Positions 24,797 through 36,796 of a stretch of DNA of 64,000 nt are shown here, piece after piece. Positions within the stretch are counted from its first letter, which is position 1, and every line of letters starts with the position of its first letter. Made by a program: the position numbers and the translations under genes. Source of the DNA: Candidatus Poribacteria bacterium (GTDB lineage Bacteria; Poribacteria; WGA-4E; WGA-3G); the NCBI GenBank assembly GCA_028820845.1, contig JAPPII010000037.1:1-64000 (forward strand). The letters are read 5' to 3'. Below the pieces are notes generated by a model. It made no database searches. It was not told the origin of the DNA and worked only from the letters and a program-made list of their open reading frames with translations.

Positions 24797-25922
24797 CTCA
24801 GAATTTATAATATTGGGTCGCTAAACTACGCATATATACTACATTGTATCCGCCTTTCGTGTCAAGGGAAAAATGCCGATCGTTAATCGCTATTCGCTTA
24901 TCGTTAATCGCTATTCGTTATTCGCGGTATGTGGTTTACGGTTCGCGGGTAATTGTCTGAATAACGGATTCGGCGGATGGCGCGGATTTTTTAGGTGCTT
25001 GGTTGGTGTGCGATTTTGTACGGATTCATAGTTTTCATAGTGATTCATAGTGATTCATAGTAACGTTTTGAAGATTGTGCCTTTAAAACCCTCATGAAGT
25101 CAGGTGTGACGTGGGTTCGTAGGCTATCTATGAAAGGTGTGTTTTTTTCTGTTACTATGAATCCGAATTTTTCGCCTCTCGGAATTATCGCTGTAACGCC
25201 AATGGTGGCGTGGGTTTAGACGGCTTTGTACTTTTAGTACATTTGGGCGGGTTACTATGAAAGTGGTGCGCATCTGTTTTTCAGAATCAGGGTTTGCAGA
25301 TAAACGCATTCTCTGTGGACATACAAGCGCGAGTATTATTTTAACTTAATGGTATGTTTTAAGTAATTTTCGTTAAAAATGTTACACTGGTGTAACATTT
25401 TGTGTAAGTGTGTAACGTTGGACAAACCCAGTCACTGTAAGGGTTTGTGGGCGTTTTTTTATGCGTCTCCGTTATGAAAAAAAATGCCAAAAGTGTAACA
25501 TTTTCAATGTCCTGATTGTTGATTTTCTACCATCTCTGAAAATAATTATTTTAAGTATAGCATATATAAATCGGAAAGTCAAGGAAAATATTGATTTTTT
25601 TTGTTCTGATGCGGTGCTGGATCGCAGTTCGCGGTTAGTGGTTAATTGTCTGAATCGCGGATTTTCACGGATTCGGCGGATTGACGCGGATTAGATGCTC
25701 TTCTCAATAACGCTTTTTGTTAAATCTGTCTGGATCGCGGATTTACCCTGATTTTTAGGTAGGTTACTGAAAAAATATCCACGAGATCGCTGCATCTTGG
25801 TCTGCCTGTGTTAGTAAAGACTGCTGGTTCTGTTTCGGACGGTTCTCTATTCCGTAAATGCTGCATGAGTTCATCGTCCCTATCGTCTTCGTCTTCATCT
25901 CTGCGAAAGAATAGCATTAGAT
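24797..25922. other. 1.1-kb repeat-rich region without a convincing gene
   Basis: It contains TAATCGCTATTCG-type repeats (24880-24950); three copies of a dispersed word like TCTGAATCGCGGATT (24954, 25657, 25728); tandem GATTCATAGT units (25025-25066) with an inverted counterpart GTTACTATGAATCC near 25150; and a TGTTACAC palindrome cluster (25376-25500). Short open frames at 25461-25694 (+) and 25720-25953 (-) show no domain, ribosome site or coding bias that I can support. Confidence 0.55.
25376..25401. promoter_or_regulatory. Perfect palindrome with extra half-sites, possible operator
   Basis: AAAATGTTACAC and GTGTAACATTTT are exact inverted 12-mers separated by two bases. Further half-sites follow at 25408-25417 (GTGTGTAACG) and 25493-25504 (GTGTAACATTTT). 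The spacing and repetition resemble a repressor-binding region, but no regulator gene is adjacent. Confidence 0.45.
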
Positions 25923-26114
25923 GTGATGTTGTGTCGTGTTCTTGCACCATCATTTCCTTTAATTACATATTGTGCTAAATGTGGGTCAGAAATACTTAGT
26001 CAATATCCCTCATGTAGTAAGGTATTAGAAAGTCCATATAGCGTCTCAAATATTCAGAGTTTCCAGCGTTGTAAGGATTGTGGCAAGCCTTACCTATGGC
26101 ATAATCAGCAATAA
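25923..26114 (+). CDS. Small zinc-ribbon-like protein (uncertain)
   Basis: This open frame of 63 codons ends with CAKCGSEI (CxxC), then CKDCGKPY (CxxC) 30 residues later. That is enough for one zinc ribbon. The true start may be nearer YCAKCG, since the first 15 residues are hydrophobic and untypical. A strong hairpin follows at 26148. It could be a small gene or the remnant of a larger one cut by the adjacent insertion sequence. Confidence 0.4.
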   Translation: MMLCRVLAPSFPLITYCAKCGSEILSQYPSCSKVLESPYSVSNIQSFQRCKDCGKPYLWHNQQ

Positions 26115-26147
26115 AATTGTAGTATCTTTAGGCTTCATAGTCAACAA

Positions 26148-26179
26148 AAACCGCAACACCAGTTGGGGTGTCGCGGTTT
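26148..26179. terminator. Hairpin terminator
   Basis: AAACCGCAACACC and GGTGTCGCGGTTT form a stem with one mismatch. T-rich runs on either side make it usable in both directions. It resembles the terminator at 28102-28141. Confidence 0.65.
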
Positions 26180-26189
26180 GCAGATTTTC

Positions 26190-26218
26190 TTGACACGGCT
26201 AAATGGATATAGTATAAT
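26190..26218 (+). promoter_or_regulatory. Consensus sigma70 promoter facing the insertion sequence
   Basis: TTGACA (26190-26195) and TATAAT (26213-26218) are exact hexamers with the ideal 17-bp spacer. The only sequence downstream on this strand is the insertion sequence, whose transposase runs the other way. The promoter may have served the gene now beyond the insertion, at 27380. Confidence 0.65.
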
Positions 26219-26229
26219 TTTAAGTAGTA

Positions 26230-27350
26230 GAGGGCGTTTCATAAATCGTTAATTTGTTATCGAAAGACGGTTTTGATATGGGTAACGTTTCGTATGGGTA
26301 GCCCGTATCTGACGTTCATTAGCATTGCGAGTTGCAACAATAGGATGCCAATGCCCAAAAAGGTGGAAACATAAGCGAGTCCTCGTATGGGTAAAGGTTT
26401 ATGTGCCCCTGTGATAGATAGGAGTTTGCTCAGCAAATCAAAGACGGGTTCGATTGCGGTTTTTCGTGCTTTTTGCCACGAGTTGATCTGTGTTGCGGTA
26501 TACAAGGGGTCTGCCCCTAAGAGCGGGTTGGCTTGGGCATAAGTCGTTTGTGGGGTGAGCAAAAGCACATCGGCTTCCGCAAAAGCGGCTTGGCGTTTTT
26601 TATCCACATGGTTTCCGTTATCTGCGACGATACACCGCACGCCTTTTTCAAGCAATCGGTCTTTTTTCGTATCCAAGACCTTGCGTTCATTGACGTTGGC
26701 AGGCAGGAGATCAAACATCACGGGAAAGCGCGGATACTCGTGAAATGGAGCCCGTAGCCATAGACCCACCCGTGATACCCGCTCTGAGACCACGTGGCAG
26801 TTGTATCAACACCGCGTAAGCCTTTGGGTATCTCATTGTTGTGGCGGTCCTTCTGATGCTAGACGGGCCCCCGCGGCTTTGAACAAACTTTTATCTTCAT
26901 AAACGACGGCTTGCCGAAACCCGGCTGCCCTGGTAAACCCTGAAGCGGCGATGTGTTCGGTGAAGGCTTGGAGTTTCGGGGTCAAGGTTTTATATCTCCG
27001 ACCCAAGGTCACATGAGACGGACACCCCGGCAACCGACAGGCTTCAAGGTAGAGGGGGTGATGAAATAAGTAAGTTTGCTGGGCACGCATAGAAGTGATC
27101 CCCTTCAGCGTCATCACGGTGTAAAAGACGATCAGCGAAGCATCCGAATACGTCTGGGGTCTCCCGCTTTTTGAAACTTTTTCCGCAGGTGTTGAAAACT
27201 CATCTAACAGGAAAAAAAGAAATCTGATATACTCTTGCATGTCAGGATATTTCATGGGTATCTCCGCGAATCTAATTTCTTAGGGATAAAAAAATTAATT
27301 CAAAGAGTACTATCCTGACTTTTCGCAACTATTATTTCTGAAACACCCTC
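26230..27350 (-). mobile_element. Insertion sequence, decayed, about 1.12 kb
   Basis: The ends are imperfect 17-bp inverted repeats: GAGGGCGTTTCATAAAT at 26230-26246, and at 27334-27350 the complement of GAGGGTGTTTCAGAAAT (15 of 17 match). They enclose one DDE-type transposase gene with frameshifts. No clear target duplication is seen (AAGTA occurs close to both ends but not exactly adjacent). Length and single-gene layout fit IS4/IS5-type elements. Confidence 0.75.
26257..27255 (-). pseudogene. DDE transposase, broken by frameshifts
   Basis: The first part (27255 down to about 26833) reads as a helical N-domain and start of the catalytic core (SGRPQTYSDASLIVFY, RAAGFRQAVVYEDKSLFKAAG). It then stops, while the expected continuation (WHQKDRHNNEIPKGLRG, WSQSGYHGWVYGYGLHF) is in another frame. 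A second shift leads into the C-terminal half (MFDLLPANVNERKVLD, RCIVADNGNHVDKKRQ, ending HIKTVFR). At least two frameshifts separate the halves, so no active product is expected. Confidence 0.8.
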
Positions 27351-27379
27351 AAGTAATTCAGGTTAATAGGAATTAACCA

Positions 27380-28087
27380 ATGTCCAGTCAACATGACGAT
27401 TATGTAACTTATCATAATACAGTCAATGCTCAAAATCGCTCTAACTATGAAGTTAAATACCGACTGATTGGGCAAATACCTACAGCTATTATTGCTATAT
27501 CCAGTCTCTATAACGTTTTCGTCAAAGACAACTGGCATTGGGGTATTGGGGTATTATCATTGGGGGCTATAATATGCTCACTCATAACCTATATCCTTCT
27601 TTATTACCTATTGGAATCTTCCAATTCTGTCAATGAACAATTGCTGGATATCTCCGCTAAAAATCAGAATTTGCCTCCTGACAAGCAATTGGAGGTAATG
27701 CCTGCGGATAAAAAGAGGTATGATCGACTTAGTAAGTACACGCGCCGCGTGTGTATAACCTCAATTTCTTTGTGTATTTTACTCACATTTACCACAGGAG
27801 GTACTTTCATGTCAGCAAACGATACAAAGTCCAAAATAACGAAAGTTATACCCCCTCGAACTGACACTCACAAAGGAGGCATTGTTAGTAGACCTATAGT
27901 GCCCGTAGCCCCAGAACCTAATACTATAGATGAAGGGGTTGTTACTCAACCTATAGTACCAGAGATAAGTAACCCTGATACTACACCTCCACCAGAGCAG
28001 CCAACAGAACAACCAGCCCCAAATCCTAATCCTCAACCGGAAGCACCGAAGCCAGAACCGCCTCCAGCAGATAAATCAACAGAATAG
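27380..28087 (+). CDS. Hypothetical membrane protein with proline-rich tail
   Basis: This 235-residue protein has two hydrophobic helices at about residues 34-80 (LIGQIPTAIIAISSLYNVF, GVLSLGAIICSLITYILLYY) and a third near 125-143 (VCITSISLCILLTFTTGG). A long Pro/Glu/Thr-rich tail follows (VSRPIVPVAPEPN, PPPEQPTEQPAPNPNPQPE). The tail is probably extended and outside the membrane. A small hairpin (GGTTAAT/ATTAACC) sits directly before the ATG, 13 bp from the insertion-sequence end. I do not recognise the family. It ends with a strong terminator and is a single-gene unit between mobile DNA and a repeat. Confidence 0.6.
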   Translation: MSSQHDDYVTYHNTVNAQNRSNYEVKYRLIGQIPTAIIAISSLYNVFVKDNWHWGIGVLSLGAIICSLITYILLYYLLESSNSVNEQLLDISAKNQNLPPDKQLEVMPADKKRYDRLSKYTRRVCITSISLCILLTFTTGGTFMSANDTKSKITKVIPPRTDTHKGGIVSRPIVPVAPEPNTIDEGVVTQPIVPEISNPDTTPPPEQPTEQPAPNPNPQPEAPKPEPPPADKSTE

Positions 28088-28101
28088 GTAGTTTCAAGGA
28101 A

Positions 28102-28141
28102 GAAAAAACCGCGATACCTCAATAGATGTCGCGGTTTTTTC
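28102..28141. terminator. Rho-independent terminator
   Basis: AAAAAACCGCGA and TCGCGGTTTTTT form a strong stem with a short loop, followed by TTTTTT on the plus strand. It ends the membrane-protein unit. Confidence 0.8.
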
Positions 28142-28169
28142 TTGACTATAGCGATGAAAATGCTATACT
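28142..28169 (+). promoter_or_regulatory. Sigma70-like promoter
   Basis: TTGACT (28142-28147) and TATACT (28164-28169) have a 16-bp spacer, directly after the terminator and about 190 bp before the next start codon. It probably drives the L12-NTD fusion gene. Confidence 0.55.
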
Positions 28170-28185
28170 ATTTACTGTGAAAATG

Positions 28186-28220
28186 AATTTAACCGATCCC
28201 AAAACGACTTGTTGCGAAAA
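28186..28220. repeat. Dispersed repeat, copy 2
   Basis: AATTTAACCGATCCC followed by AAAACGACTTGTTGCGAAAA differs from copy 1 (24-53) at about three of 30 positions. It lies downstream of the promoter at 28142. Confidence 0.6.
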
Positions 28221-28322
28221 ACTTTAGAAATGCTGATGAAAGCCCAAGGCGTGAAAAAGTTCCAATAAATATCGAGAGAATTCCAGATGGATCACTCATT
28301 GCTACCGAAATTTTCTAAAATT

Positions 28323-28344
28323 AAAACTACTCATTGCGAAAATC
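28323..28344. repeat. Dispersed repeat, copy 3 (partial)
   Basis: AAAACTACTCATTGCGAAAA repeats the right-hand part of the unit just before the ribosome-binding site of the L12-NTD fusion gene. Confidence 0.5.
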
Positions 28345-28360
28345 AAAGGAAAAGGTAAAC

Positions 28361-29290
28361 ATGGCTGCAGACATAAAAGCAATGGTTGAAAAAATTAGCA
28401 AACTGACCGTTCTGGAACTTTGTAAACTGATTAAAGCCTTAAAGGATAAATTTGGACTTAGGACATCAGGCATAGTTAGAGGGAATACCAACGAAGTTAC
28501 AGAGGTAGAAGCAGTCGTGGAAGAGTCTGAGGATGCCAAACCTGAAAAGGAATCAAAACGAGCCCCTATTGAAGTGCCTACGGAAAATGTCCCCGTTGAT
28601 GGACCTGTTGACGAACCTAAAGACGAAAAAGAATCAGAACCAGTTCCTGACCCTTCGTCTGCTGAAGTGCCTGACGCGGGAGAAGATCCTGCTGATAAGA
28701 TTGAAGATGAGTCAGAAAATAAAAAGGAATCAGAACCAGTTCCTGACCCTTCGTCTGCTGAAGTACCTAACGCGTCAGATGAGCCTGAGGATAAGCCTAA
28801 TGATGAGAAAAAGGTAGAGACAGATCAGAAAGAAACTATCAAAGTGAAACCAGGGTTCAATCCTGACCTCACCAACTACGATTCCAATTGGACTCCGACT
28901 AACCCGAAATCAAACAACTCATCGTCTCCACCACCTCCTATGCCTAAAGGTGAAGACTATGATTTGGTGTATGCGTGGAGATATTCTGATAATAAAAAGT
29001 TCGCTAAAATCGGTGAAAGTACAAAGCACTTGTTGCATACTCGGATGCCTGTAACGTATTATCCTACAGGTGATCCGGTATTGATTGGTATCCGAAAGTG
29101 TAAGCATAAAGCACACGCCATAGCCGTTCAGAACTATATCCTAGACGGACTAGGACGGACGCTCCCTCGTCGTGAATGGGTAAAAATTGACGAGGTGTTT
29201 AATGAGATGATTGATAAGTCATTTATATCGGATCCTGATGAACTGAAGAGAATATTTGGCAGAAATATGAAAACAGAGAAAATCGTATAA
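28361..29290 (+). CDS. Fusion of ribosomal L7/L12 N-terminal domain, acidic linker and GIY-YIG-like (T5orf172) domain
   Basis: The protein has 309 residues from the ATG at 28361 (AAAGGAAAAGG upstream). Residues about 1-36 read MAADIKAMVEKISK then LTVLELCKLIKALKDKFG, which matches the dimerising, L10-binding N-terminal domain of ribosomal protein bL12 (LTxLELxxLxKALExKFG). Residues about 50-190 form an acidic, Pro-rich linker containing two copies of KESEPVPDPSSAEVP (DNA repeats at 28631-28678 and 28727-28774). Residues about 205-290 look like a T5orf172/MUG113-type GIY-YIG domain (LVYAWRYSDNKKFAKIGEST, RMPVTYYPT, PRREWVKIDEVF). There is no L12 C-terminal domain. It could dock on the ribosomal stalk and act there as a nuclease; that is inference. 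It sits next to a restriction-modification gene and between copies of a short repeat. Confidence 0.75.
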   Translation: MAADIKAMVEKISKLTVLELCKLIKALKDKFGLRTSGIVRGNTNEVTEVEAVVEESEDAKPEKESKRAPIEVPTENVPVDGPVDEPKDEKESEPVPDPSSAEVPDAGEDPADKIEDESENKKESEPVPDPSSAEVPNASDEPEDKPNDEKKVETDQKETIKVKPGFNPDLTNYDSNWTPTNPKSNNSSSPPPPMPKGEDYDLVYAWRYSDNKKFAKIGESTKHLLHTRMPVTYYPTGDPVLIGIRKCKHKAHAIAVQNYILDGLGRTLPRREWVKIDEVFNEMIDKSFISDPDELKRIFGRNMKTEKIV

Positions 29291-29300
29291 CGAAAATTCT

Positions 29301-29334
29301 CAAGCCCAAAACTACTTATTGCGAAAATATTTAG
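29301..29334. repeat. Dispersed repeat, copy 4
   Basis: CAAGCCCAAAACTACTTATT followed by GCGAAAATATTTAG lies 10 bp after the L12-NTD fusion gene. With copies 2 and 3 it brackets that gene. Confidence 0.6.
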
Positions 29335-29394
29335 CGAATCGTTAAACAAAGGTCAGAATTAAATTGTGCCAATATGACAGGGCAAGTGAGGATA

Positions 29395-32300
29395 TTAGCC
29401 TGTAGTTATTTCTGTAGACAAATTATCAATAATCAGCGCAGACTCCACACTTACATAAACAATCCGTTCAATCGCCGCAACGAGATCGCGGGGATCTGCA
29501 AACCAGCCATTGGGGTCGTTGACGATACCGCTGTCTTTGTCCGTTGTGATTTTGTAGCGGTCAATAAACCACTCCAAAGGGGTTCTGCCGTTGACGACAT
29601 ACCGGTGCGCTGCTTCTGGGATGCCAGATAGACGAACATGCTCATTGATGACGAGGGTTGTCTTGGTCTCTTTATCGGTGAAACGCATTGCTTTTTCGGT
29701 CAACCGAAAATGGATCGGTTGCGGTTCGCCTTGATGGGAGAAGATGCATTCCAAGGGGTATTGTTCGCAGGTTTCGTAATTGAGATGGAGTTCTGCAAGG
29801 GCAACGCCTGCTTCTGCAAAGGCGTGAAAATCTGGGGCATAAGGGATGCGCGGTATCATTTTGGATAAATCATTTGCGAACTGTTCTCGATAACTCGGGG
29901 CGTGTAGAACCCCATAGACGTAATCGAAGATGTCGTCTTTGGTGATAACATCATCGCGATAATGTTCACGGAAGGCGTGCAGTGCGGTGTTAGAGATATT
30001 GTCAATACGATCAGGTGCCTCGTCAATACCGTCAAATGTACCTGTTGCGTCTGATGTATCTACAGGTTTCGGGTATTGGTAGCGTGGGAAACACTGTGAG
30101 GCATTATTGAACCCGAGATCTGGCATCGTGTCGGTTATAAGGGCAGAAAACGGCTTTTTGCTGCCGAGTCCGGGGACACATATCACATGATTTTCGCTGG
30201 AATTGTCAGGAAAAATTCGATCCAGCTGATATTTCATCTGCACAAATGTATAGTCGGCATAACAGTTCGTTGCTACAAACGGCCGATACGCGACTTTTCG
30301 GATATAGCCGCTTTCAAATCGAGGCATTTTCCTTCTGCGTAGATTGTTTTCAAGTTCACGATCCCACTTAATACCTGAGGTATGCCGGCGAACTACTTCC
30401 TCCACTGTGATTATAGGATTATTCTCTCGCTCTTGTAGAGCATTGAGATAACCCTCCGTCATTCGCTCCGCATTCTCAGTACAGGTATCACGCGAAAAGT
30501 TATAGATGTATGTGTCTTTACCTGTTGCTAATCCTCTTGAGTACAACCCAAATATCGCGTTGTCTGCTTTGCCTGCCCTCGCCTCCATTGATCCCATCGG
30601 GTAGAATTTTTGGAAAACCTTACTGCGTTGTCCTATCCAGTCGTGGTATTCATTAGGGATGATTATTTGCCAATCGCTGAAACCTTTCATGGATATTGCT
30701 TCGTGCAGTGTATCCAATTTCTCCTCGCGTGTGAGATAGTCGCCAATATCGCGATATTGAATTTTACACCCCTTGTGTGTCGCATTTGGGTTCTTAACGA
30801 GAATTGTAATAGCGACAGGGGCGCGGGAACCGCTCCCAAACACCTTTCCGCCCTCACGACGTGACACCTCTCCTTGAGTACGTTGATTTCCTCTCAGGTT
30901 CAGGACATGGATTGAACTGAACTCCTCTGCTAAACATGCCCGGACTCCTGAATCAACGTTCCCGTCAATCCATGAACCGTTGGTGACAAATGCAATGATT
31001 CCCTGTTTTTCAATTCTGTCGGATGCCCATCGGATTGCCATCTTGTAGGTGTCATAGAGACTATTTTTGTTTGTCACCGTAGAGTATTCAGTGTAAGTTT
31101 TACTGATGTGTTCTTCAAGCTCAGGATACTCTACATTCGGATTGTCGTCCGCTGCACTTCGTTGTCCTGCAGACCATGGCGGATTACCGACGATAACGCC
31201 GATAGGAAGCTGCTGTTGACGCTCGGCGCGCTCGTTGTTATCAGGTAGCCAGTCTCTTGGGAAAAGGGTTCTGTTTTTGTTTAGGTTGAACGTATCGGTT
31301 AAGACGATGCCGTTGAAGGGCTCGTAGGTACTGTCTTGTCCGCGCTGTCCTCGGAAGGCTTCCTCAATATTGACAGCGGCAATGTAGTAGGCGAGGAGGA
31401 CGATCTCGTTGGCGTGGAGTTCGGCGCGGTATTTGCGTTCGCGGTCATCAGGTTTAATAAGTCCGGATTGAATAAGACGTGCAAGGAAAATACCGGCACC
31501 GGTGAACGGATCCAGAATATGAACGCCTTCATCGCTAAGGCTTTTTCCGAATTCGTCTTGTAAAACTTCGTTTGCACTATGCAAGATAAAGTCCACGACT
31601 TCAACGGGGGTATAGACGATACCGAGGCGTTCCGCGTCCTTTTTCAGTGCGGTGGCAAAGAATTTCTCGTAGAGTTCTAACAAGACGCGTTGTCTGCCTT
31701 CACTATTGTCAATACCACGGGCGCGTATTCGGACGCTTTCGTAGAACTTCTCCAAATCCCGCGTCTCGTCCTCAAGACCGAATTCCGCAAAATCGTTGCG
31801 GAGTCTGTCAAGGGCAATTGCGACAGGGTTGCCGGAAGCGAAGTCGTAATTCTCGAAGAGTGCTTCAAAGACCGGACGGGTCAAGATATGCTGCGCCATC
31901 ATATCAATGGCATTGCTCCGCGTGATTGCGTCGTTTATAGCACTTTTCAATTCCGAATGGAAATCGTCAAACCATTCACGGAGTGCATCGTTTTCGGGGG
32001 TGTCCAGTAGGCTCTCAATGCGTCCGACGACCCGAAGGAAAATATCGGCGACATCCTTTGCCCAGCTCTCCCAGTATTTTCGGTCTCCGCACTTTTCCAC
32101 GATTTTAGCGAATATCGCATCGGGTGGGAGATCCATGGGTAGAAAGAGTTGTTGACCGTTTGCAGCATAAGATCCGATACCCTCCCCGTCCTCGTTGAGT
32201 CCTGTAAAGATAATCCGATCGGGTGTTGCGGTGTTCAGGTCGATTCTGTTGATTTCGGCGTTGAGTCTGTCGTCGTGAGAACGGAGGGCGCGGAGGACAT

Positions 32301-34197
32301 TCCACACGGAAGCAAAACGTTCATTATCATTGAGAATATCGGCGGGGTCGGCACCTGAGGGGATTGCAACTGGGAGGACGATATAGCCGTACTGCTTGCC
32401 TTCCGCTTTCCGCATGACGCGGCCGACTGCCTGAACGATGTCAACGTGTGAGTTGCGCGGACTCATGAAAAGCACGGCATCGAGTGCTGGCACATCAATC
32501 CCTTCCGAGAGGCAGCGTGCATTGGAGAGGATACGACACACACCGTTAGAAGTGCCCTTCAACCATTCAATCCGTTTCTTTCGCTGGAGTGCGTTTGTCT
32601 TCCCATCCACGTGATCGGTTTCGCATGTGAAATCAGCGGGCCGTTGGTCTTCCGGCATGCGTTCAATCGCACTTTCAATAACGCCGTTCCAGTGATGCAC
32701 AAGATTCTTTGAGGCGGCGATGGTATTCGTGAATGCGATGGCGCGGGTCAACGGTTTTATCTCTGGATCGTCAGCGGATTTCCTTTCAGGATTTTGGAGG
32801 GCACGCCAGCAGCCGACAATCTTTGTGGCATCGTTGATGTTGATTTCTTTTCCACCGGCGGTGCGATAGGTCTGTAGTGCCGCGTCCGTGCTCTGTTCCG
32901 ACATAGCGAGTACGACAACCTTGTAGTCAGAAAGCAGGTCTTGCTCGACGGCTCTGGAGAAGGGGAGTCGATGGAATTCGGGTCCGTAGGTTTCGGGATC
33001 GTCCATAGAGAAGACTTCGATGTCGTGGCGTGCTGCTTTTGCCTTCGCGCCTTCCGTATAGAGTCGTGCGGTAGCCGTCATATAGAGACGTTTCTTGGCA
33101 CGGACACGATCGGCATTGTGGACGAGAACGAAGGGTGATGTTTTGTCTCCGTTGTCTTCAATACCGGTGGTTCTGTGTGCTTCATCACACAGAATGAGAT
33201 CAAACGGGGGCGCGCCTGCGTCTTGTGCTGCCTCGACAATCGGGAGAGAGTGGTAGGTGCAGAAAACGACCTTCATATTGTTAGCGTCGGTTTTCTGGAG
33301 TGCTTTGGAGATGTCGGCGGGGTCAGTGGTAACAGGAATTTCGAGTTCCAAAATAGATGCGTCTTCAGCGGTTTTACCTGCTTTTGTATCCGAGCAGATA
33401 CCGATATAGCGGTGTGGCACACTTTGTTGTTCTGACCATTCACGCATTGCCTGTGCAAAGAGTCCGATGGAAGGGACAAGATACAGCACCCTACCCCCAA
33501 CACCCGCAAGATACTCAGCGATTCGGAGTGCTGCGAAGGTCTTACCCGTGCCGCATGCCATAATCAGTTTGCCGCGATCGGATTCTTTGAAGCCGTTAAT
33601 AACGTCGTTAAACGCCTCTCTCTGATGTTCGCGTAGGCTGAAGGTCTCTTGTTGGTAGTCGAGTTGCTCGGCCTCTTGAATGCTGAGATCGGGCCATGCT
33701 ACCGGTCGGCTGGCGAGGTCGGCGGCACTGATACGTTGGCATGGCGGTTGCAATCCGTCAAGGGTTCTGTGGAGGTTGGCACTCCAGTCGTGTGCCGTGT
33801 CTACGAACATTCGGGAGGTGAAGGGTTCACGTGCCGAAGCGGAGATGAATGTATCCAAGTCTTTTTTTGAAATGCGTGTGGTCTCGGCATAGCACTTACA
33901 CTGAATCGCGCAGTAGCCGCCATCGCGTTCTGCTGCGACGAGATCGATGCCTATATCAACGCCGTCGAATTCTGGACGGAGTGCTGCCCATTCCGACCAG
34001 AGGTAGACTTCGGAGAATCGTTTTTGGTAGAAAGGATCTTCAAGGAAATATGTTCTGATGAGTCGCTCGAAAAGTTTGCCTTTTCCGTAGTGTGTATTGG
34101 CGTTTTCTCGGATGTAATTGAGGGCGGTGTAGAATCCGTTATCTGTTTTTTCGGTTTCGGTTCCCAAGGCGAGATAGGTTTGTGTTGTTTCTGACAT
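29395..34197 (-). CDS. Type ISP restriction-modification enzyme (single polypeptide)
   Basis: This 1600-residue protein has all parts of LlaGI/LlaBIII-type enzymes in order. An Mrr-like PD-(D/E)XK nuclease (about 40-170) carries GIDLVAAE and IQCK. An SF2 helicase/translocase (about 195-700) has Walker A ACGTGKT, DEAH and a C-half ending ARCLSEGIDVP and QAVGRVMRKAEG. An N6-adenine methyltransferase (about 880-1150) has motif I DPFTGAGIFLARLI and motif IV NPPW. A C-terminal target-recognition region (about 1250-1600) includes VAYRPFVATNCYADYTFVQ. One protein therefore methylates and restricts by DNA translocation. I start at the ATG at 34197. The frame is intact. Confidence 0.93.
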   Translation of the reverse strand: MSETTQTYLALGTETEKTDNGFYTALNYIRENANTHYGKGKLFERLIRTYFLEDPFYQKRFSEVYLWSEWAALRPEFDGVDIGIDLVAAERDGGYCAIQCKCYAETTRISKKDLDTFISASAREPFTSRMFVDTAHDWSANLHRTLDGLQPPCQRISAADLASRPVAWPDLSIQEAEQLDYQQETFSLREHQREAFNDVINGFKESDRGKLIMACGTGKTFAALRIAEYLAGVGGRVLYLVPSIGLFAQAMREWSEQQSVPHRYIGICSDTKAGKTAEDASILELEIPVTTDPADISKALQKTDANNMKVVFCTYHSLPIVEAAQDAGAPPFDLILCDEAHRTTGIEDNGDKTSPFVLVHNADRVRAKKRLYMTATARLYTEGAKAKAARHDIEVFSMDDPETYGPEFHRLPFSRAVEQDLLSDYKVVVLAMSEQSTDAALQTYRTAGGKEININDATKIVGCWRALQNPERKSADDPEIKPLTRAIAFTNTIAASKNLVHHWNGVIESAIERMPEDQRPADFTCETDHVDGKTNALQRKKRIEWLKGTSNGVCRILSNARCLSEGIDVPALDAVLFMSPRNSHVDIVQAVGRVMRKAEGKQYGYIVLPVAIPSGADPADILNDNERFASVWNVLRALRSHDDRLNAEINRIDLNTATPDRIIFTGLNEDGEGIGSYAANGQQLFLPMDLPPDAIFAKIVEKCGDRKYWESWAKDVADIFLRVVGRIESLLDTPENDALREWFDDFHSELKSAINDAITRSNAIDMMAQHILTRPVFEALFENYDFASGNPVAIALDRLRNDFAEFGLEDETRDLEKFYESVRIRARGIDNSEGRQRVLLELYEKFFATALKKDAERLGIVYTPVEVVDFILHSANEVLQDEFGKSLSDEGVHILDPFTGAGIFLARLIQSGLIKPDDRERKYRAELHANEIVLLAYYIAAVNIEEAFRGQRGQDSTYEPFNGIVLTDTFNLNKNRTLFPRDWLPDNNERAERQQQLPIGVIVGNPPWSAGQRSAADDNPNVEYPELEEHISKTYTEYSTVTNKNSLYDTYKMAIRWASDRIEKQGIIAFVTNGSWIDGNVDSGVRACLAEEFSSIHVLNLRGNQRTQGEVSRREGGKVFGSGSRAPVAITILVKNPNATHKGCKIQYRDIGDYLTREEKLDTLHEAISMKGFSDWQIIIPNEYHDWIGQRSKVFQKFYPMGSMEARAGKADNAIFGLYSRGLATGKDTYIYNFSRDTCTENAERMTEGYLNALQERENNPIITVEEVVRRHTSGIKWDRELENNLRRRKMPRFESGYIRKVAYRPFVATNCYADYTFVQMKYQLDRIFPDNSSENHVICVPGLGSKKPFSALITDTMPDLGFNNASQCFPRYQYPKPVDTSDATGTFDGIDEAPDRIDNISNTALHAFREHYRDDVITKDDIFDYVYGVLHAPSYREQFANDLSKMIPRIPYAPDFHAFAEAGVALAELHLNYETCEQYPLECIFSHQGEPQPIHFRLTEKAMRFTDKETKTTLVINEHVRLSGIPEAAHRYVVNGRTPLEWFIDRYKITTDKDSGIVNDPNGWFADPRDLVAAIERIVYVSVESALIIDNLSTEITTG

Positions 34198-34422
34198 ATT
34201 GGTTTTCTCCACTAGGCAGATTCCTTCGGTTGGATGCACAGGCTAACAGCCTATGCTACATAGGATATCTGATGGTGAGGGAAAAGTCAAGTTTTTTGTT
34301 GCGGTTGGAAAACTGTGAAGAAACGCCTAAGCAACACCCTATTGGGCAGTGGGTCAAAAACGCAAAAAAAAGTTTTGTGCGTTGAATAAATGCCGAAAAT
34401 CTGATAGAATATCTCTCAGGCA

Positions 34423-34544
34423 TAGGACTTACGCAATTTTGACTGCAGCCCGTTCTGTTTGATGCGAATTTTCGGAAAACACAGTGTTCTCATGCCACAA
34501 ACTGGGAAGTTTGTGCTACAAAAGAGCAGCATCCGTAAGTCCTA
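34423..34544. mobile_element. MITE-like element A
   Basis: About 122 bp with terminal inverted repeats TAGGACTTACGC (left) and CGTAAGTCCTA (right), and an internal CACAAACT/AGTTTGTG hairpin. It has no coding capacity. Confidence 0.6.
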
Positions 34545-34608
34545 AGGCAGAAAAGGAGTGCCATTTTACAGGATGCCTATTTTTTTCCTTTTGGTTATCT
34601 TAATTCAT

Positions 34609-34700
34609 CAGGACTTACGCAAAATGACGGAATTCTGCTACCTATCACGTGATTCGGTGCGGTTAGAAACCGCACCTACCAGGGGTGTGCGTAAGTCCTA
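34609..34700. mobile_element. MITE-like element B containing the GCGGTT hairpin
   Basis: About 92 bp with the same ends as element A (AGGACTTACGC and GCGTAAGTCCT). Inside, at 34656-34676, lies the dispersed hairpin GTGCGGTTAGAAACCGCAC followed by CTACC. So one repeat family is nested in, or carried by, the other. Confidence 0.6.
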
Positions 34701-34749
34701 TTTATAAAATTGTCCAAACTTTAGTCATCTATATCCGGATGAAAATACG

Positions 34750-36267
34750 ATGAACAGAATAGAAGTACCACTTAAAGTTACGATTCGCGATAATCCACAT
34801 AGGGACACCGTTGCCAAACAACCGTTCAGTGCCGAAATTAACGTTGCAAATTTTGGACCTATTAAAGCGAGTTGTGTGGATTTACGACCACTGACAGTGT
34901 TTGTCGGTCCTAGCAATACGGGGAAAACCTATCTTGCAACTTTGGTATATGCTTTGCACGGTGCTTTTAACAGTTTGACGCATCCGAGTCTCCTTTCGCC
35001 GCTGGGGTCAGGAAAAGTTATGGATCTACTGAAACTTATGATGAACAGCACGACAGCAGCGACAGCGGAAATTCAAGAAATGCTCAACAGATTAGGAAAG
35101 CATGAACAGCCTTTTAAACTGTCGGATATGCCAGTAGAGATGCGCGAGCATCTGTTTTCGCTGCTCAAGGAGGATACAGGGCTTTTTAAAGGCGTGCTGC
35201 AGCAACTTCAGGATGAACTCAAAAATTGCTTTGATCTCGGTTCTATCGCAGAGCTAAACCGATTGACTGACGAACAATCGAATCAATTTAACATCGGACT
35301 CAAAATAGGTAGCAAAACGGATAAATATTGGGATATCCGGATGACACACGCCGAATCAGCAGCAATTGATATGGATGTTTCACATTTTTTCGACGATCCG
35401 ATGCCAGATTCTTTAGTGCTTCTACCCTCAGGGTGGTCCGTATATGGTAGATTGGATGATAATACCGTCACGATGGGAAGTATCGGCTATACGATCCGAG
35501 ATAGGTACTATCTACCGGCATCTCGGAGTGGCATTATGCAAAGTCACCGCATCATAGCAAGTTCACTTATCACGCGCGCCACCCGGGTTGGATTAGAACG
35601 GTTACCTGAAATGCCAACACTATCTGGTGCCGTCGCGGATTTCATGCAAAAAATCATCCAGTACACTGAAAAGGGAAATGGGAACCCGGAAATGCAAAAG
35701 ATCGCTGAAAGTTTAGAGAGCAACGTGCTTGGTGGGCAAGTCCGTTTAGAACCTTCCCTCAGCGGTTATCCAGACTTCCGTTATGCGCCAAATGGTGCAG
35801 CGACCGAACTCCATCTGAGCCAATCTTCCGCAATGGTATCCGAGCTTGCTTCGTTGGTTTTATTTCTGCGGAGTGGTGTTAAACCTGGAGACATGCTCAT
35901 CATTGAAGAACCCGAAGCACATCTACATCCCGGTGCCCAAGCAGATATGGCAGTTATTCTGGCGAGTTTAGTTCGTGCAGGTGTGAGCGTGATTGCAACA
36001 ACACATAGCGACTGGTTGCTTGAAGAAATAGGAAACCTGATTCTTGAAGGGCTATTAGCGGAGCAAACCGACGCGTCAGCGAGCTGGTTGTTACCAGAAG
36101 AAGTCGGAGCATGGCACTTCCAAAGAGACGAACCTGTCAAGGAAATTCCTTTTAAACCCAGAGAAGGTATTTCTCCAAAAGATTACGAGGATGTTGCTGA
36201 AGGACTCTACAACCGATCGGTGAATCTCCAACAGAGATTTGAAAAAAAGAAAGGTAAGCGCGCGTGA
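34750..36267 (+). CDS. AAA-type ATPase (OLD/RecF-like), partner of the next gene
   Basis: The protein has 505 residues. The N-terminal half begins INVANFGPIKA and LRPLTVFVGPSNTGKT (Walker A, about residues 50-60), typical of ABC/SMC-type AAA_15 ATPases. After a coiled or helical insertion (about 75-330) come the signature region LSQSSAMVSELASLVLFL, Walker B LIIEEPEAHLHP (about 385) and the H-loop VIATTHSDWL. The last 80 residues lack a TOPRIM domain, unlike OLD nucleases. The stop overlaps the next start (GTGA), so the two are translationally coupled. Such ATPase-nuclease pairs are typical of phage-defence modules. Confidence 0.8.
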   Translation: MNRIEVPLKVTIRDNPHRDTVAKQPFSAEINVANFGPIKASCVDLRPLTVFVGPSNTGKTYLATLVYALHGAFNSLTHPSLLSPLGSGKVMDLLKLMMNSTTAATAEIQEMLNRLGKHEQPFKLSDMPVEMREHLFSLLKEDTGLFKGVLQQLQDELKNCFDLGSIAELNRLTDEQSNQFNIGLKIGSKTDKYWDIRMTHAESAAIDMDVSHFFDDPMPDSLVLLPSGWSVYGRLDDNTVTMGSIGYTIRDRYYLPASRSGIMQSHRIIASSLITRATRVGLERLPEMPTLSGAVADFMQKIIQYTEKGNGNPEMQKIAESLESNVLGGQVRLEPSLSGYPDFRYAPNGAATELHLSQSSAMVSELASLVLFLRSGVKPGDMLIIEEPEAHLHPGAQADMAVILASLVRAGVSVIATTHSDWLLEEIGNLILEGLLAEQTDASASWLLPEEVGAWHFQRDEPVKEIPFKPREGISPKDYEDVAEGLYNRSVNLQQRFEKKKGKRA

Positions 36268-36755
36268 ATCTGCATAGACATCTTGAGGAGATTCGTCGAT
36301 GGATAGGGCACAGAAGAGCAACATCCTATACCAAAGAAGGCTGTCGCGTTTCCATGGCAAGTATACCGTCTGAACGTGTTGTATTGGATGTAGACCTTGC
36401 TTTTCCAACAGACAGAGCAGATACAAATCAATGTGACTTTGTTCTTTTTTACATTGACACTTCCAAAGAATGTCTCGTCGGGGTTCCAATGGAACTTAAA
36501 GGCAGCACTGATGCCTCAAAAATAATTCAGCAATTGCAAGAGGGGGCACGCATCATTGATAGGTTGGCTTCAAACACTGTCAAAACGGTTTGCATTCCTA
36601 TCGCATTTCACCGCAGAAAGATTCACAAAGCACAGCTCAAAAAGCTTAAAACTTCCAGAGTGACATTCCGAGGCGAGGAATTTCCAATTAATACAACGCG
36701 ATGCAGTTATGAAGGAAACTTAGCACAGGCTTTGTCGAAATCGACGCAACGTTGA
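36264..36755 (+). CDS. Putative PD-(D/E)XK-type nuclease partner
   Basis: This 163-residue protein starts with GTG inside the ATPase stop. The core shows CDFVLFYID (candidate metal-binding Asp), a turn, then VGVPMELKG (ExK) followed by a helix (ASKIIQQLQEGARIIDRL) and a strand (VKTVCIPIAF). That is the order expected for a small restriction-type nuclease. The C-terminus is basic (HRRKIHKAQLKKLK). I do not recognise a named family. The catalytic assignment is inferred from motif order only. Confidence 0.6.
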   Translation: MNLHRHLEEIRRWIGHRRATSYTKEGCRVSMASIPSERVVLDVDLAFPTDRADTNQCDFVLFYIDTSKECLVGVPMELKGSTDASKIIQQLQEGARIIDRLASNTVKTVCIPIAFHRRKIHKAQLKKLKTSRVTFRGEEFPINTTRCSYEGNLAQALSKSTQR

Positions 36756-36796
36756 CTTTGCGCGTCTCGGAAACAGTATAAGAAGGAGCATACTGA

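Follow-up and report, generated by a model that had tools for sequence, protein, structure and literature searches.

A bL12 N-terminal domain joined to a T5orf172/GIY-YIG-like domain in a Poribacterial accessory island: a chimeric gene between IS1595-family ends

What kind of protein is encoded by a bacterial gene that starts as ribosomal protein bL12 (L7/L12) and ends as a member of a nuclease-like family, and how could such a gene have come about? To our knowledge, bL12 is normally met only as a stalk protein; its N-terminal domain (NTD) is the part that binds L10, and its own hinge displays the C-terminal domain at the factor-binding site of the ribosome. The gene was found in a genome (5.69 Mb, 95.5% complete) of Candidatus Poribacteria, a sponge symbiont, within a stretch of 64,000 nucleotides that is part of contig 37 and is called the window throughout. 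The ORF is intact across 309 codons and starts with ATG at 28361; an in-frame TTG at 28334, if used as the start, would lengthen the protein by 9 aa. The joining of an L12 NTD to a T5orf172-type domain was confirmed as a real fusion; the gene, its parts and its upstream region are as follows (basis of the assignment in brackets):

28361..29290, plus strand: fusion ORF, 309 aa; L12 NTD, acidic linker and T5orf172/GIY-YIG-like domain (ORF scan, Pfam, model).
28345..28360, plus strand: rplL-like leader with ribosome-binding site (blastn against native rplL loci).
28361..28468, plus strand: bL12 N-terminal (dimerisation) domain, aa 1–36 (PF16320 at aa 5–33; two-helix model).
28469..28936, plus strand: acidic linker, aa 37–192 (156 residues), low confidence (charge; model).
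28581-28772: tandem 96-nt repeat inside the linker coding region (repeat search).
28937..29287, plus strand: T5orf172/GIY-YIG-like domain, aa 193–309 (PF10544 in a paralogue; model, pLDDT 87.4).
29129..29131, plus strand: Gln257 codon, aligned with the catalytic residue E180 (Glu) of Odn (alignment).
28142..28169, plus strand: promoter-like site ahead of the fusion, TTGACT-16-TATACT, 10/12, extended -10 (consensus scan only).
28100-28143: inverted repeat ahead of the promoter-like site (consensus-level observation only).

The N-terminus of the fusion protein matched PF16320 (Ribosomal_L12_N) at residues 5–33 (E 1.3e-8; 34.8 bits, curated cut-off 25 bits), and the profile search thus bore out the sequence-only reading, in which this segment had been taken for the bL12 NTD. 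TIGR00855 was aligned with residues 1–57 at 22 bits, under its own cut-off; the full-length model gave two helices (residues 2–13 and 17–31; pLDDT near 81), and the top PDB matches of the N-terminus were L12 NTDs. The C-terminal factor-binding domain of L12 gave no match in the protein, a T5orf172-type fold standing in its place; the protein is therefore not a bL12. In the 85 genomes of the phylum (PF16320 and our own alignment), one native L12 was found in nearly every genome, and beyond these exactly two places matched the L12 NTD, the window gene and a gene on contig 70 of another genome (G049:C70), after which the scores fell to noise at E about 0.003; the match is thus more than chance.

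At the DNA level (blastn), similarity to rplL spans from 28345, ribosome-binding site included, to about codon 36. Over 99–108 nt the NTD segment and the rplL of its own genome share 71–72% identity, and the closest native rplL compared reaches 79%; the segment is therefore not a recent rplL duplicate. The same divergence makes an assembly chimera, which was also considered, unlikely. An extra segment in the host L10 for binding L12 was likewise considered and discarded; the L10 tail is the same genus-wide and not particular to this genome.

Native NTDs of the genus (n = 24) are nearly invariant in sequence and carry a net charge of -5 in all cases, versus +4 in the fusion. The charge was raised by D6K, E11K, N14K, E22K, E28K and S34R, with K7A in the opposite direction; E11, E22 and E28, all Lys in the fusion, are acidic and invariant in native Poribacterial L12. 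All 14 hydrophobic positions of the NTD stay hydrophobic, versus 10.5–11.5 of 14 retained on average in neutral simulations (P 0.02–0.05). The outcome of the synonymous/nonsynonymous test varies with the assumed donor: against the closest native (G083) the counts fit neutrality (P 0.54), and against the genome's own rplL they indicate purifying selection (P 0.002). The NTD thus seems to retain its fold, with some of the constraint on its surface gone.

The linker that follows (aa 37–192) has a net charge of -26, in agreement with its earlier description as acidic, and its pLDDT in the full-length model is mostly below 60. For the C-terminal domain no match to Pfam T5orf172 (PF10544) was obtained in the window protein itself at E up to 1; a 49% identical paralogue on contig 106 (G000:C106) passes PF10544 (E 2.1e-5), and so does a G067 relative (E 1.9e-6). 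The domain model (13 sequences) reached pLDDT 87.4 and pTM 0.81, and its best structural matches were the GIY-YIG structures Slx1 and UPF0213 (Z 4.4–6.7; next unrelated chain 3.2); Foldseek on this model by itself was weak, and its matches to blasticidin deaminase and similar structures were discarded (Foldseek probability < 0.1). A GIY-YIG fold is supported for the predicted structure, and the T5orf172/GIY-YIG-like assignment of the sequence-only reading was retained.

Delivery of an active nuclease, which that reading had also proposed, was weakened by the alignment. In Odn, the characterised T5orf172 nuclease of phage ICP1, the E180A substitution abolishes activity (PMC8263062); the E180 column is occupied by Gln257 in the window protein, so that the third-helix glutamate of active GIY-YIG nucleases is absent. 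Among the nine closer Poribacterial members this column holds Glu in seven, His in one and Gln in one, the window protein; other GIY-YIG residues (Y204, G218, R228) and the REW motif were kept. The paralogue G000:C106 has Glu. Since the catalytic Glu is replaced, an impaired or non-cleaving domain is the most economical reading of the sequence. A more distant T5orf172-like branch (n = 4; L062-L065 in G059, G084, G070 and G060) has Tyr in the same column, and RAW where the others have REW; catalytic loss thus happened more than once in T5orf172-like proteins.

Three right ends of IS1595-family elements lie around the gene:

28187..28216, plus strand: first IS1595-family right end, tip 28216 (motif scan, DNA similarity).
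28308..28338, plus strand: second IS1595-family right end, tip 28338, 22 nt upstream of the ATG (motif scan).
29294..29323, plus strand: third IS1595-family right end, tip 29323, just after the stop codon (motif scan, DNA similarity).

The motif AAACTACTTATTGCGAAA, one mismatch allowed, was found in 24 copies in the genome versus 0 in the reversed control, and copies often sit just inside contig ends. On contig 8 it stands just upstream of a PF12762 transposase; in G084 inverted copies enclose an IS1595-family transposase together with an HTH-T5orf172 gene (L066:5327-7975) in which the catalytic Glu is present. From these two arrangements the motif was assigned as the terminus of an IS1595-family element. 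The three right ends of the window share one orientation, with no transposase between them, so that the fusion lacks the layout of an IS1595-family passenger gene, which shares the space between the two inverted ends of a single element with the transposase; around the other T5orf172 relatives inverted ends are clear only in G084 and partial or absent elsewhere. The similarity to rplL starts 7 nt past the second tip; the T5orf172 part ends just before the third tip, as in G084, and there the DNA similarity runs through the end. The fusion looks transposon-born, because IS1595-type right ends bracket the gene and its T5orf172 relatives, one of which is carried within an element of this kind, have other N-termini. 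Insertion and rearrangement of an IS1595-family element near an rplL copy would have joined two pieces, namely the 5' end of rplL (ribosome-binding site and NTD codons) and, via the acidic linker, a T5orf172 domain supplied by a transposon-associated gene.

Two further observations concern these elements. At 28217-28338 of the window the 3' end of another ORF (terminating in IPDGSLIATEIF and a stop codon) directly precedes an IS1595-type right end, and 3' ends of passenger genes seem to be stacked in tandem there. In L093:1501-3017 (G000:C8) an N6/N4 DNA methylase gene comes next after a transposase gene of the IS1595 family and is perhaps carried by the element as a passenger.

The gene lies in an accessory region of the following composition, which also includes a transposase remnant:

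24876..36780: accessory insertion, about 11.9 kb (flanks adjacent in other genomes).
27380..28087, plus strand: 235-aa ORF neighbouring the fusion, without family match (Pfam/PADLOC search).
29395..34239, minus strand: type ISP/IIG restriction-modification enzyme (PF18135, PF22240, PF13156; PADLOC REase_MTase_IIG).
34750..36267, plus strand: AAA ATPase resembling PD-T4-4_A/PDC-M47A (Pfam, PADLOC).
36264..36755, plus strand: small partner gene overlapping the AAA ATPase gene (weak PDC-M47B match, E 0.003).

In G067, G073, G080, G081 and G084 the two flanks are separated by 82–560 bp, and the segment of about 11.9 kb is therefore an insertion in this genome; G056, of the same species, stood outside this comparison, its contig ending at the island border. 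An accessory island with a restriction-modification gene next to the fusion, as read from the sequence at the outset, is thus present. No PADLOC family matched the fusion protein at E 0.01, in contrast to its neighbours in the island, which were hit by defence models. At 34424-34546 of the window lies a dispersed repeat, about 120 nt long, that recurs many times in this genome and in the genus.

The full fusion was found in one copy in the 85 genomes of the phylum, with no orthologues among them, and is not a conserved system. Relatives of the full protein or of the C-terminal domain were not found in phages, plasmids or viral contigs, and a scan of genome contigs turned up nothing beyond four T5orf172 relatives, all Poribacterial and none with L12; the NTD alone gave chance-level matches or ordinary L12 only in phages and plasmids. 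The N-termini of the Poribacterial T5orf172 relatives differ from the L12 NTD and are mostly HTH-like, which makes the N-terminus a swappable module; in other genomes these relatives adjoin ordinary genes. In G067 a T5orf172 gene opens with 13 rplL-like codons (L067:6992-7030, G067:C19; 26/39 nt, a similarity that none of 2056 other 39-mers beginning with ATG attained), and its upstream context is similar too; beyond these codons the sequence is different and the second NTD helix is missing. A G000 relative of this gene, 80–90% identical, has another start.

The second place outside native L12 is a gene of 599–613 aa in G049 (L061:5868-7667, minus strand) with a full L12 NTD (PF16320, E 3.2e-6), a spacer related to giant Ig-like proteins and a C-terminal end that is the CxxC region of TmtA-like proteins. 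Its neighbours on either side, a DrmD-like helicase gene and a TmtA-like gene, lie on the same strand. Both genes were inspected in nine other genomes and occur there without L12; in G074 the middle place is held by a TmtA-like gene of 1210 aa. The NTD of the G049 protein departs from neutrality against every native tried (P 0.001–0.01), in the direction of purifying selection. No IS1595 ends were found at this locus, and the G049 fusion is independent of the window fusion; both were joined at the NTD end. Neither this second fusion nor the IS1595-family ends and the HTH-like N-termini described above figured in the sequence-only reading. The occurrence of the same NTD with two unrelated C-terminal domains in two defence-type settings makes coincidence less likely, though two cases are few.

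The setting of the G049 gene is a shared Poribacterial operon in which a DrmD-like SNF2 helicase is accompanied by one or two TmtA-like (sacsin/GHKL) proteins that have a C-terminal CxxC region in common (L097-L105); in the G049 version (L061:2502-10814, G049:C70, minus strand) the L12-NTD protein is in the middle. In several genomes (G049:C3, G000:C15) a giant Ig-like gene matching the G049 spacer is found at a distance of about 15 kb from rplL, a possible clue to the assembly of the G049 fusion.

Among known systems, the fusion groups with the T5orf172 proteins by fold and modular build. Odn (Gp88 of Vibrio phage ICP1) and T5orf172 homing-type nucleases likewise have a C-terminal T5orf172 domain, an exchangeable N-terminal module and a chimeric origin (PMC8263062, PMC10448857); Odn combines a RepA_N DNA-binding N-terminus with the catalytic Glu, whereas the window fusion combines the bL12 NTD with Gln. 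The T5orf172 domain of Poribacterial HTH-T5orf172 genes is 43–54% identical to that of the fusion, and in both an IS1595-type end follows just after the stop codon; the N-terminus is HTH-like in the former and an L12 NTD with an acidic linker in the latter. With bL12 the fusion shares an NTD followed by a flexible segment; unlike bL12, it is without the C-terminal factor-binding domain, has lost the acidic surface and lies outside the rplJ-rplL operon. The G049 protein is similar in its N-terminal L12 NTD, long spacer, C-terminal domain common to another protein family and accessory defence-type locus, and different in its Ig-like-related spacer, TmtA-like CxxC C-terminus and DrmD-like/TmtA-like neighbours. 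No description of an L12-NTD fusion was found in the open-access literature, which was the scope of the search; the earlier remark that no system of such architecture had been described agrees with this.

We favour, tentatively, a chimeric gene of IS1595-family origin in which the NTD serves as a self-association module on a flexible arm with a probably non-cleaving GIY-YIG-like domain. The NTD would be a folded two-helix module forming a homodimer or possibly a mixed dimer with native L12; the dimer would hold two GIY-YIG-like domains on long flexible arms, and these domains, with Gln for the catalytic Glu, would bind nucleic acid without cleavage or with poor cleavage. Dimerisation and nucleic-acid binding are proposed by analogy with the parent families; cleavage was presumably lost, and any selected function of the fusion is putative. 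The PF16320 match, the two-helix model and the full retention of hydrophobic positions while surface charges changed argue for this reading, as do the GIY-YIG fold, Gln257, the exchangeable N-termini of relatives, and the G049 fusion, joined at the NTD end and with its NTD under purifying selection; the neutral counts against the closest native (P 0.54) argue against it. The chimeric transposon origin is favoured by the IS1595 ends on both sides, by the start of rplL similarity 7 nt after one of them and by the G084 arrangement. A reading not far behind in probability, though itself unlikely, is that transposon rearrangement simply joined a well-expressed rplL start to a T5orf172 gene, the NTD having no specific role or the gene being a decaying by-product. 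The similarity covering the ribosome-binding site, the G067 gene with its 13 rplL-like codons only, the singleton status, the loss of the catalytic Glu and the same neutral counts are consistent with such a capture; the joint at the domain end in both full fusions, the kept hydrophobic core, the purifying selection on the G049 NTD and the intact ORF speak against it.

Docking on the stalk is an unlikely alternative of nearly the same probability, in which the NTD dimer would sit on the C-terminal helix of L10, replacing native L12 or mixed with it, and the acidic arm would display the GIY-YIG-like domain at the factor-binding site. It draws on the L10-binding nature of the NTD, its intact hydrophobic core, the predicted long flexible arm as in bL12 and the retention of exactly the NTD in two independent fusions. 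The Lys residues at E11, E22 and E28 and the shift in net charge suggest relaxed constraint on a stalk-L12 surface, E28 being Lys in the G049 fusion as well; as Thermus L12 has Gln at position 22 and Lys at position 28, Lys at these two positions alone is compatible with L10 binding and not by itself prohibitive. An active ribosome-directed nuclease of a defence system is very improbable: the architecture, the island context and the conserved Y204, G218, R228 and REW would suit it, and it is opposed by Gln257 (compare the inactive Odn E180A; PMC8263062), by the lack of a PADLOC family and by the ordinary neighbours of T5orf172 relatives elsewhere.

The anchoring domain of L12 occurs here in two accessory loci, each time with a different, unrelated partner domain. 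One may speculate, at a low probability, that the bL12 NTD is used repeatedly by Poribacterial mobile and defence-island proteins as a stalk-docking or stalk-mimicking module that replaces the usual DNA-binding or ATPase N-terminus and suspends an effector domain on the stalk; the proteins of the window and of G049 would then be two independent cases. If the NTD docks on L10, it would give mobile or defence proteins a new route to the factor-binding site of the ribosome; even as a dimeriser or a captured start, it is a clear example of a ribosomal-protein gene fragment recruited, apparently via transposon activity, into a modular nuclease-like family.
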